Source: Metabacillus litoralis
Lineage (GTDB): Bacteria; Bacillota; Bacilli; Bacillales; Bacillaceae
Direction: 5' to 3'
NCBI RefSeq assembly: GCF_007994985.1
Contig: NZ_VOQF01000016.1
Span: 1 to 64,000 of the forward strand
Length of the DNA stretch: 64,000 bases
Notes under the pieces: model-generated
Told to the model about the DNA's origin: nothing
Databases searched by the model: none
Seen by the model: only the letters and a program-made list of their open reading frames with translations
Part shown: positions 1,201 to 37,509 of the stretch, in pieces
Layout: each line of letters opens with the position of its first letter
Numbering within the stretch: the first letter of the stretch is position 1
Program-made: the position numbers and the translations under genes

Positions 1201-1227
1201 AAAACATGTAAATAATAATTAACGGTA

Positions 1228-1299
1228 ACCTCATATAAAATTGGGAATATGGCCCAGAAGTTTCTACCCGCTGACCGTAAATCATCGGACTATGAGGGA
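1228..1299 (+). promoter_or_regulatory. Guanine (purine) riboswitch aptamer
   Basis: All conserved purine-aptamer blocks are present in order: P1 strand CCTCATATAA, GGGAATATGG, AGTTTCTACC, ACCGTAAAT and the closing GGACTATGAGG. The nucleotide that reads the ligand by Watson-Crick pairing is C (GGACTATG), which specifies guanine/hypoxanthine; adenine aptamers have U. It lies 130 nt upstream of purE and is followed by a strong terminator, so it should switch the operon off when guanine is plentiful. Confidence 0.96.
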
Positions 1300-1338
1300 A
1301 AGTGTAAGTATAAACGATTCGGTATTTAGTTAGATCCG

Positions 1339-28096: not shown

Positions 28097-28537
<441 letters not shown>

Positions 28538-28982
28538 ATCCACTCCTGATTTTATTAATCTTGTACAAATTTTATCATGTAATCATATTTTCTTCTATAA
28601 TTTCAAAAAATCCCCATCTTATATTGAGATTATTTTAAGAAAATTATGGTGCAAAATTTTTAATTTTTTTAAGGTGGATCTGACATGAATCTGCAAAAAA
28701 ATAATGGGTTTTTATAGATTTTGTAAATTTAATTTTATTAATTTTTATGAATAGATATAACTTAAAATAGGCTATTATGCCTAAATAATTCGTTTTTGTG
28801 TATATTTATGCAATTTGCATTTTTTTAACAAGCCTTTGATTTGTTGTGCTTGTCAAATTGTGTTACGATTATTAAGGGTTATGCCAATGTGGTACTACTA
28901 ATCTATTTTTTATCATCCATCATTAAATTGCATAAGCTTGCATAGAGATTTGTTGACAGCAATTTTAGGAGGTGACTACTCA
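28538..28982. other. Long AT-rich promoter region for the symporter pair
   Basis: About 445 bases of very AT-rich DNA between divergent genes. GGAGGTGA at 28969 is the ribosome site of the small accessory peptide. TTGTCA near 28852 could serve as a -35 but no good -10 at proper spacing was found. B. subtilis opuE, the syntenic symporter, has an extra sigma-B promoter; I could not find one here with confidence. Confidence 0.4.
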
Positions 28983-30612: not shown

Positions 30613-30672
30613 GGCAAAATCCCACTTTCTTCATATTATATAGGAAGTAAGGATATGAGGAGGATATGTGGG

Positions 30673-31050
30673 ATGTCGGATCCAATGAAAATGATGAATG
30701 ATTTTTTTCAAAAGCGACCTAAGCGTACGCTTTTAGATACGATAGATGGCGCTTTTAGAAAGCCTGATTATGCTAGTTTTGGGGTTGAGATTGTAGAAAC
30801 TGATTCTAAATTTAAAGTTCTAGCGGAACTACCAGGTGTAGCGAAAGAAAGCATTGATGTGGAAATTCGCGGTGATGAATTAGTTATTAAAGTGAAAGAA
30901 AGGGCAGATCAAACACGGAAAATAGGCGGTGTGCGTGAGGTTCATTTGCCTGATTATGTGATTAAGCGAAATATGAAGGCTGTTTATCGTCATGGATTAC
31001 TTGAGATTACATTAGATAAGAAGAAGCCGACGAAGATTGAGATTGAGTAG
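30673..31050 (+). CDS. Hsp20/alpha-crystallin family small heat shock protein
   Basis: 125 residues with an alpha-crystallin domain: FKVLAELPGVAKESIDVEIRGDELVIKVKE, then GLLEITLDKKKP, the conserved G-x-L signature strand. The C-terminal Ile-Glu-Ile-Glu resembles the I-x-I assembly motif. ATP-independent holdase that binds unfolding proteins. I chose ATG 30673 because AGGAGG lies 9 nt upstream; the ATG at 30655 overlaps that site. No CIRCE or CtsR box was seen, so heat control is not evident. Confidence 0.85.
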   Translation: MSDPMKMMNDFFQKRPKRTLLDTIDGAFRKPDYASFGVEIVETDSKFKVLAELPGVAKESIDVEIRGDELVIKVKERADQTRKIGGVREVHLPDYVIKRNMKAVYRHGLLEITLDKKKPTKIEIE

Positions 31051-31091: not shown

Positions 31092-31132
31092 TGAGCGTGA
31101 AACTAATGTGGTGATGGGTGTTGGTCGGATTG

Positions 31133-31253
31133 TGTCGAAAAACTAATATATTGCGGGATTGAGCAAATATAACGCTAAAAAGGGCAAATATAGTATGAGA
31201 AGCAGCAAATATATAAGTCCCAACAACAAATAAACATTACAAATTAGCAAATA
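31133..31253. repeat. 21-bp periodic array A
   Basis: After TGTCGAAA, a heptamer recurs exactly every 21 bp: ACTAATA 31142, then GCAAATA at 31163, 31184, 31205, ACAAATA 31226, GCAAATA 31247. The 14-nt spacers differ in sequence but not in length. Lies between hsp20 and gatC, ending about 135 nt before gatC. The second array at 34673 has the same leader, the same six-unit length and the same period. Function unknown. Confidence 0.9.
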
Positions 31254-33166: not shown

Positions 33167-34597
33167 ATGGAATATGAAACGGTCATCGGACTTGAGGTCC
33201 ATGTTGAGTTAAAAACAGAATCTAAAATATTTTCAAGTGCACCAAACCACTTCGGTGCTGAGCCTAACACAAACACAACAGTTGTTGAGCTAGGTTATCC
33301 TGGTGTATTGCCTGTTTTAAATAAAAAGGTTGTTGATTTTGCAATGAAGGCTTGTATGGCTCTGAATTGTGAAGTTGCAACAGAAACAAAGTTCGATCGT
33401 AAAAATTACTTTTATCCAGATAATCCAAAAGCATATCAAATTTCTCAGTTTGACAAACCAATCGGAGAAAATGGCTGGATTGATATTGAAGTAAACGGTG
33501 AAACAAAGCGTATCGGAATTACCCGCATTCATATGGAAGAAGATGCAGGTAAGCTTGTTCACTCTGGTGATGGCTATTCATTAGTTGACTTAAACCGTCA
33601 AGGTACTCCACTTGTGGAAATTGTATCTGAGCCAGATATTCGCACACCTGAAGAAGCATATGCTTATTTAGAAAAATTAAAGGCGATCATTCAATACACA
33701 GAGGTTTCGGATTGTAAAATGGAAGAAGGCTCACTACGTTGTGATGCGAATATTTCATTACGTCCAGTAGGACAAGAAGAGTTCGGAACAAAAACAGAGC
33801 TTAAAAATCTAAACTCATTTGCATTTGTACAAAAAGGCCTTGAGTATGAAGAAAAGCGTCAAGAAAAGGTGCTTCGCTCTGGTGGAGTGATTGATCAAGA
33901 AACACGTCGTTATGATGAAGCTACGAAAAAGACAATTTTAATGCGTGTAAAAGAAGGCTCTGACGATTATCGTTATTTCCCAGAACCAGATCTTCTTGAG
34001 CTATACATTGATGACGAGTGGAAAGAGCGTATCCGTGCTTCAATTCCTGAGCTTCCAGATGCACGCCGCAAGCGTTATATGAGCGACCTTGGTTTACCAG
34101 AATATGACGCACAGGTATTAACAATGACAAAAGAAATGTCTGATTTCTTTGAGCAAACTTTAGCAGCAGGTGCTGAAGCTAAGCAAGCATCAAACTGGAT
34201 CATGGGTGAAGTGTCAGCGTATTTAAATGCTGAAGGAAAAGAGCTTAAAGATGTTGCTCTAACAGCAGAAGGATTAGCAGGCATGATCAAGCTAATCGAA
34301 AATGGCACAATTTCGTCTAAAATTGCTAAGCAGGTTTTCAAAGAGCTAATTGAAAACGGTGGAGACGCTGAGAAAATCGTCAAAGAAAAAGGATTAGTCC
34401 AAATTTCTGATGATGAAACTCTACGTAAATTTGTAAACGACGCACTTGACGCAAATCCTCAATCTGTTGATGATTTCAAAAATGGTAAACAAAAAGCAAT
34501 CGGCTTCCTTGTTGGCCAAATTATGAAAGCAACAAAAGGACAAGCCAACCCACCATTGGTGAATAAGCTGTTGATGGAAGAAATTCAAAAAAGATAA
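33167..34597 (+). CDS. gatB: Glu/Asp-tRNA amidotransferase subunit B
   Basis: 476-residue kinase/transamidase subunit. The start [28 protein letters not shown] and [11 protein letters not shown] are the phosphorylation and metal-site region. The C-terminal YqeY-like tail domain ([20 protein letters not shown]) binds tRNA. AAGGGGTG before the ATG. Ends the operon, followed by a terminator. Confidence 0.96.
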
Positions 34598-34604
34598 GTT
34601 AGAG

Positions 34605-34636
34605 GGGATGAAATCTTAGTGATTTCATCCTTTTTG
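34605..34636 (+). terminator. Terminator of the gatCAB operon
   Basis: GGATGAAATC pairs perfectly with GATTTCATCC around TTAGT, followed by TTTTT. Confidence 0.92.
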
Positions 34637-34672
34637 GTTTGGTGGGATCCTGATGTGTGTGTTTCGTTTTTT

Positions 34673-34792
34673 GTCGAAAAACTAATATATTCCGGAAAAC
34701 AGCAAATAAAAGAGCTGGAGTAGCAAATAAAAAGGGGGAAGCAGCAAATATATGGATCAAATCAGCAAATAAAAAGGTGAAAAGAGCAAATA
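34673..34792. repeat. 21-bp periodic array B
   Basis: Leader TGTCGAAA then ACTAATA at 34681 and GCAAATA at 34702, 34723, 34744, 34765 and 34786: six heptamers exactly 21 bp apart. Spacers differ from each other and from array A, except near the leader (ACTAATATATT shared). It starts about 40 nt after the gatB terminator and ends 65 nt before the next gene. Confidence 0.9.
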
Positions 34793-36951: not shown

Positions 36952-37509
36952 TTATAAATTTACATCAAGTCTGATTTCAATAGAAGAATCGTTCATGATC
37001 CCAATGTATTGTTTTGTTTCGGAGGGAGATGATTGCTGAAGTCGCTTTTGTATCAATGAAATAGCGATACCCTTTTTATATGCGTGATAACCAAATGTTT
37101 TTCTTAATGTATGTGTACCGATTGCTTCAGTAAGACCTGCTTGTTTTGCTGAATCATTAATAATTCGGTAGGCCTGCTGTCGTGTAATCGGCTCTGAAGT
37201 CTTTTTTGATTTAAATAAATAATCTTCTGGCTGAAGAGATCGATGTGATATACAAGCAACAACTGCGTCACGTACTCTTTCATTAAGATAAATAGGAGGG
37301 CTTTTATAAGTTGAATAATATAAAAATTCATTGATTTCATGATCTTCGTTTAAAAACTCATCCACACGAAGGTGCAAAAGATCATAAATTCTTATTCCTG
37401 TATTAATGCCTAACAAAAGTAAACAATAATCACGATGAGAACGAGCTTTTAAATAAGCTTGCATAGAAGCTAGTTGTTCTTCACTTTTTATTGCTTCAAC
37501 GTTTTTCAT
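36952..37509 (-). CDS. Single-domain tyrosine recombinase/integrase
   Basis: 185 residues that contain only the catalytic half of a phage-type integrase. Candidate catalytic residues: Arg40 (NTGIRIYDLL), Lys69 (STYKS), His133 and Arg136 (GTHTLRKTFG), and nucleophile Tyr168 (TKQYIGI). The usual sixth residue (His/Trp in LGHSS) is Gln here (RLQQSS, 157-161). The N-terminal arm and core-binding domains are absent, as in several small chromosomal Bacillus recombinase-like proteins. GGGAG lies 9 nt before the ATG. Its promoter contains an 11-bp direct repeat, suggesting autoregulation. It could act as a DNA-binding regulator rather than an active recombinase. Confidence 0.8.
   Translation of the reverse strand: MKNVEAIKSEEQLASMQAYLKARSHRDYCLLLLGINTGIRIYDLLHLRVDEFLNEDHEINEFLYYSTYKSPPIYLNERVRDAVVACISHRSLQPEDYLFKSKKTSEPITRQQAYRIINDSAKQAGLTEAIGTHTLRKTFGYHAYKKGIAISLIQKRLQQSSPSETKQYIGIMNDSSIEIRLDVNL

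Follow-up and report, generated by a model that had tools for sequence, protein, structure and literature searches.

Leader-headed heptamer arrays phased at 21 bp in Metabacillus and their possible link to a NERD-domain protein

REP/BIME elements are made of palindromic units and are associated with RAYT, a Y1 transposase. The arrays in this study resemble them in being dispersed intergenic repeats with genome-specific variants and a linked enzyme gene, but are built of short direct repeats with a 21-bp phase, are linked to a NERD protein rather than a Y1 transposase, and have cores (GCAAATA, CGAAGATA and CGAAAATA) that are not palindromes, unlike the REP unit. Neisseriaceae DNA uptake sequences exist as dialects of one genomic word, and share with the arrays their species-specific spellings, whereas the Neisseriaceae words are neither arrayed nor phased. 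CRISPR loci, with long near-identical repeats and acquired spacers, are similar in that a leader is followed by repeats with different spacers; the core here, however, is 7 bp and not a long repeat, and the spacers, ~80% identical between species and drifting, are inherited. Plasmid iterons are direct repeats about 21 bp apart, and the likeness lies in this distance and in the placement on one face of the helix. The arrays, in contrast, are chromosomal, occupy many loci and conserve 7–8 bp, and no replication initiator gene was seen by eye beside array B described below, where the flanking ORFs are gatB and a 160-aa ORF. The right ends of Tn7-like transposons have a TGT terminus, several phased direct sites and a position behind a gene in common with the arrays, which differ in their 21-bp spacing (~20 bp in Tn7-like ends), in their five or six sites (four in Tn7-like ends) and in having no transposase linked to them. 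The TAACTGA heptamer direct repeats of Beggiatoaceae are intergenic, present at many loci, of unknown function and in the majority located just before start codons; the arrays are likewise intergenic heptamers at many loci, but with another heptamer and in other lineages (PMC4679880). No publication on these arrays was found in the open literature, where result lists were covered in part and subscription papers lay mostly outside, and their novelty is provisional. The arrays and their NERD link point to an undescribed DNA-marking system.

The window, that is, the whole 64-kb stretch of Metabacillus litoralis DNA that was analysed (genome G000), contains two such arrays. Array B follows gatB (33167–34597, + strand; an ORF named from the sequence-only reading and by eye), which runs in the same direction and whose protein has a match in 21/21 genus genomes. 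A terminator-like hairpin with a T run, read from the sequence, lies between gatB and the array (34606–34636, +). Leader alignments place the array B leader at 34662–34678 (+), with two boxes at 10 bp (TTTCG-TTTTT-TGTCGAA; general form TGTCGNNTTTTGTCGAA). The conserved leader part TGTCGAAAAACTAATA, including the first unit ACTAATA (34681–34687), occupies 34672–34687 (+); its identity and the units are as the sequence-only reading had them, but its start lies one base to the left of the 34673 given there. Direct reading and the pair count both support the remaining units, each GCAAATA on the + strand: unit 2 at 34702–34708, unit 3 at 34723–34729, unit 4 at 34744–34750, unit 5 at 34765–34771 and unit 6 at 34786–34792, with a period of exactly 21 bp. 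The leader of array A, GGTCG-GATTG-TGTCGAAAAACTAATA, is at 31123–31148 (+; the TGTCGAAAAACTAATA part at 31133–31148), and its units 2–6 span 31163–31253 (+), starting at 31163, 31184, 31205, 31226 (here ACAAATA) and 31247. Upstream of array A, and in the same direction, is a 131-aa ORF (30655–31050, +) that by eye looks like a small heat-shock protein. The leaders of the two arrays are 3539 bp apart, and direct reading of both bears out the earlier statement that they share leader, six units and period whilst their spacers differ.

The window contains six GCAAATA pairs at 21 bp, where 100 dinucleotide shuffles predict 0.01, and the reversed-pattern control for the triple pattern found 0 matches across the genome. 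Chance was thereby ruled out, in agreement with the sequence-only reading, which had called it very unlikely. Coding heptapeptide repeats were dropped by eye because spacers and frames change. An Rfam search of the window gave no match on the arrays, the sole match being a purine riboswitch (RF00167, 86 bits) at 1211–1312 (+). The window also holds an ORF at 28097–28543 (−) with about ten AGT units (28154–28184), read on that strand as a threonine tract, and a 185-aa ORF at 36952–37509 (−), ~2 kb behind array B, that by eye resembles a short tyrosine recombinase.

Aligned elements have the general layout TGTCG-NN-TTT-TGTCG, with the two TGTCG boxes 10 bp apart, followed by the first unit and, in most cases, five more at 21 bp. 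The genome of the window has ~12 arrays, 11 of them accounting for 22 overlapping triple matches and a twelfth found via its leader, and seven exact copies of TGTCGAAAAACTAATA plus three with one mismatch. That the pair brackets an essential operon is true in this genome but probably incidental, as G006 has the gatC-side array only and arrays lie behind many unrelated genes and rRNA operons. Steps of exactly 21 bp make up 104/128 for GCAAATA, 93/145 for CGAAGATA, 55/66 for CGAAAATA and 6/7 for GTTGANNGATT in genus loci, and the others are mostly 20 bp or multiples. A step of 21 bp would equal two helix turns at 10.5 bp, which would place all sites on one face of the helix.

The strict GCAAATA triple was found in 4/21 genus genomes and 12/299 order genomes, counting the genome of the window. 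A scan of named genomes, yielding at least 118 stretches, added Neobacillus, Cytobacillus, Mesobacillus, Gottfriedia, Fictibacillus, Lysinibacillus, Ureibacillus and others, and one array of the window's genome recurs with unchanged spacers in M. crassostreae (L081). Bacteroidales and Bacteroidaceae loci (L079, L132, L136, L139) also show GCAAATA at 21 bp with differing spacers, possibly an independent parallel. A leader search matched 19/21 genomes, but reversed controls matched too; of 30 leader loci read by eye, ~21 had an array and nine did not. Among virus contigs, 36 stretches fit the triple pattern. Searches for array copies on plasmids returned weak matches only (E 0.5 or more in one search, 3 or more in the other), and one 23-bp plasmid match (E 9) lies inside an annotated TnsA gene.

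Across 14 ortholog pairs taken from G000, G002 and G007, agreement is seen at 433/441 heptamer positions, 217/224 leader positions and 710/882 spacer positions (Fisher p 2e-23 for heptamers vs spacers), figures to be read with the knowledge that the pairs share three genomes and are not independent, that arrays were ended at the first unit with <5/7 matches, favouring heptamers somewhat, and that pair L030/L316 was not included and the gcv pair is reported apart. The latter array, in the gcvT-gcvPA gap (names by eye; L006 ~1450–1595, G000:C12 near 41887; also L307 and L081), is set against the operon direction; its spacers are 69/70 identical between G000 and G007, with flanking DNA at ~94%, a selection pattern unlike that of the other pairs. 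Five pairs of the CGAAGATA dialect gave 160/168 for units vs 177/208 for spacers (p 0.001). Since the heptamers are kept while the spacers drift, it is concluded from these alignments that the heptamer units are under selection and that something reads them, and the spacers are, on the same comparison, inherited and drifting between species rather than free inserts. This conservation, together with the repetition of leader and six 21-bp units across the genome, agrees with the earlier description of a defined element. It also contradicts the view that the arrays are a neutral tandem repeat without function. Such a view would be in keeping with the existence of long arrays (61 units in Ureibacillus) and with the nearly uniform spacers in 9/67 Bacilli loci among the matches listed, but arrays with varying spacers (mean identity under 0.7) account for 58/67 Bacilli loci vs 9/51 other loci among the same matches, the other loci being mostly ordinary tandem repeats, with uniform spacers (identity 0.7 or more) in 42, and neutrality is considered highly improbable.

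In relatives, the leader described above precedes arrays with different cores, namely CGAAGATA, CGAAAATA and GTTGANNGATT. Triple matches of the CGWARATA type number 10 in G003, 33 in G006, 11 in G016 and 37 in G020, with 0 in the remaining 17 genomes (reversed control: 2 in G020, 0 elsewhere), all of them lower bounds given that exact patterns were used and that the CGAAGATA arrays of G000 were missed by this pattern. G000 has three dialects under one leader, CGAAGATA arrays included, and the leader search added the spellings CGCTGATA and GTTGAATGATT there and others in G001, G008–G012, G014 and G018. The third dialect, also at 21 bp, is AAAGTTGAATGATT, spelled AAAGTTGAATGATTAT or AAAGTTGACAGATTT (L392 near 1480 (−) and L393 near 1490 (+), corresponding to G000:C75:73805 and C4:85890; also L367, L375, L384 and L399). 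Dialects also change at orthologous sites: between metC and NERD, GCAAATA in G000 is replaced by CGAAAATA in G020 at the same offset, and at gatC, GCAAATA in G000, G002, G007 and G006 corresponds by eye to CGAAGATA in G005, G010, G012 and G014.

The sequence-only reading had proposed a mobile or templated element, and one clear case of copying was identified, although it is a single one. A second array in M. litoralis G007 (L306) copies that genome's own gatC array, with a spacer identity of 0.84 vs an all-pair median of 0.44, and the homology is limited to leader and array, extending from a few bases before the leader to ~12 bp past the last unit. In G002 the corresponding gene pair has no array in between, and the flanks of the G002 and G007 site are too divergent for an exact junction; at this approximate junction, terminal inverted repeats and a target duplication were not evident by eye. 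Judging from this case, leader and array can together come to occupy a new site. Where G007 has the copied array, G000:C1 carries a ~375-bp inverted-repeat element with ends GAGGCTGGGACATAA (L482 ~2520–2900).

In an alternative view, the arrays would represent single ends of TnsB-type (Tn7-like) transposons that were either left over or retained to mark target immunity. Ends in this bacterial order have the TGT terminus and four direct sites at ~20 bp (e.g., AAAGTTnnACCGTTTATAAA), stand right behind a host gene in the two cases read, and have TnsB sites which the third dialect AAAGTTGAATGATT resembles. No TnsB-type gene was found in G000, G003, G016 or G020, however, and the leader followed by units was not seen in 58 stretches around TnsB-type genes (18 + 20 + 20; leader scanned in 38). 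None of the transposons seen there combined this leader with a 21-bp array. The sites of the Tn7-like ends are spaced at 20 bp, one end (L454) scoring equally at 19, 20 and 21, and the one 21-bp repeat in these stretches (L439) is a uniform tandem repeat without the leader. The units, moreover, are conserved despite having no transposase. An origin as transposon ends is judged improbable. Within the stretches of ~3 kb read around them, matches to leader and array are single. Tn7-like elements do occur in two genus members, behind nrdJ and glmS (by eye; L424 17341 to L425 4309, and the glmS side of L426), and there tnsA is preceded by four TnsB-like sites spaced at 20 bp.

The neighbours of the arrays were compared at 67 loci, chosen by organism name from the at least 118 stretches, including one labelled Pseudomonas (L147) and several from the same genome. 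Among the matches listed, with 116 array-adjacent and 358 non-adjacent ORFs, NERD is the only family beside arrays in three or more loci, occurring in four, one of whose ORFs is a 90-aa remnant that lacks the NERD domain and another cut by the locus end. No NERD relatives were found away from arrays in those 67 loci among the matches listed, and a rough hand estimate puts the probability of this adjacent-only split among them near 0.004. An array directly precedes the NERD gene with GCAAATA in G000, G002, G007 and G006, with CGAAAATA in G020 and with CGAAGATA in G001, where a second array lies behind the gene; the same position is seen in Ureibacillus acetophenoni and Paenibacillus sp. FSL R5-0490. 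Most arrays do not adjoin NERD. A search for NERD on plasmids or phages gave no match.

A staphylococcal NERD protein, SmdA, has been described in a paper that calls the domain previously unstudied in any bacterial protein (PMC9040797). PF08378 scored above the cut-off in 6/6 proteins given (E 2e-15 to 3e-23). Residues E45, D78 and K93, which fit a PD-(D/E)XK-like active site and are presumably catalytic, are invariant in 8/8 NERD proteins, and four cysteines common to the eight are zinc-ribbon-like. The structure model of one of these proteins is poor overall (mean pLDDT 59) and in its NERD part, and the helices and strands predicted for its C-terminus (blocks with pLDDT 74–88) resemble those of a winged helix. 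The presumed recognition helix starts with SIY, SPY or SID in proteins beside GCAAATA, with STM beside CGAAAATA, with SSA beside CGAAGATA and with SVF in the remnant, an agreement between helix and dialect drawn from few proteins, some of them near-identical.

At the metC locus, G006 has the order metC, terminator, leader and array, NERD. In G003 and G016 the same neighbours are present, and array and NERD are both missing at the syntenic place, where the absence was scored and where no convincing remnant of either was found (best E 0.06). The GCAAATA array at gatC has 0 mismatches and only 21-bp steps in G006, and in G003 and G016 three mismatches each and steps of up to 23–24 bp, a decay that fits the loss of that dialect's reader; as G003 and G016 are close, the absence of NERD and the decay count as one evolutionary event. 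These observations suggest that the arrays may be docking sites for a co-evolving NERD protein, to which we assign a probability of roughly 45%. Counting against it are the NERD-side arrays of G006, with three mismatches in 35, and of G007, with a last unit that is not recognisable, as well as the three dialects noted in G000 vs the one NERD gene seen there.

In the first list, from four genomes with a near-complete chromosome contig, 36/43 arrays lie in the dnaA-based origin half (p 4e-6) and 40/43 on the leading strand. With eight more arrays (five found by leader and three gatC arrays), of which three are lagging, the counts are 43/51 and 45/51. The origin bias holds after these additions. 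The leading-strand background of genes is 0.75, against which the strand bias goes from p 0.002 to p 0.016, and it may only follow gene direction. The upstream ORF shares the array direction at 10/11 scorable arrays in G000, and by eye some loci have a hairpin behind the array, both of which would suit arrays that act as RNA in 3' untranslated regions. Other loci, however, have a terminator-like hairpin before the array, an unstructured RNA would not be expected to have exact 21-bp spacing, and some arrays (e.g., L006, L268 and L287) oppose both neighbouring ORFs, making a role as RNA a decidedly improbable one. Arrays follow rRNA operons, housekeeping genes and many unrelated genes; of 13 loci picked for grouping together or having unclear neighbours, eight are preceded by a co-oriented 23S rRNA and a ninth (L304) by a 5S rRNA.

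This placement, with most arrays far from NERD, would also suit binding of the arrays by a different host protein, one with a role in organising the origin region of the chromosome, with NERD as no more than a frequent neighbour. The coexistence of several dialects behind a common leader within a single genome would agree with such a protein, and the leader resembles tandem Spo0A boxes, the Spo0A box being TGTCGAA. The second leader box of the CGAAGATA dialect is TGTCTAA or TGTAGAA, however, which departs from a strict Spo0A box; of the eight added arrays, three lie on the lagging strand; and NERD, the only recurrent neighbour among the matches listed, is missing together with its array. A host protein of this kind is regarded as a rather unlikely binder.

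If the arrays are docking sites for the NERD protein, each would be bound by one sequence-specific DNA-binding protein, with binding started by the TGTCG boxes of the leader at 10 bp and the six same-face sites at 21 bp allowing protein units to bind side by side. The most likely binder would be the NERD–zinc ribbon–winged helix protein, docking via its winged helix; its gene neighbours an array in several genera, and the two are present or missing jointly. The protein may regulate its own expression from the array that precedes its gene, and the scattered arrays could anchor, titrate or receive it; any nuclease action would be a further property that we infer. Changes in the winged helix would be followed by changes in the units, giving rise to species dialects, and new copies would arise by duplication of leader and array. 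Taken further, array and NERD gene may form an undescribed self-spreading two-part system of Bacillaceae, made up of a nuclease-like protein whose winged helix evolves and of the 21-bp phased array read by it. In such a system the cassette would come and go as one, array copies would be placed near the origin, for the most part in the leading-strand direction, and the dialects of protein and array would change together into a chromosome code of the species' own, a proposal that is tentative and somewhat doubtful. Should the NERD link be true, a widespread domain would gain a DNA target whose code can be read, the matched pairs of protein and site would offer a natural series for watching protein-DNA specificity evolve, and a well-studied bacterial group would be found to have an origin-biased system for marking its chromosome.
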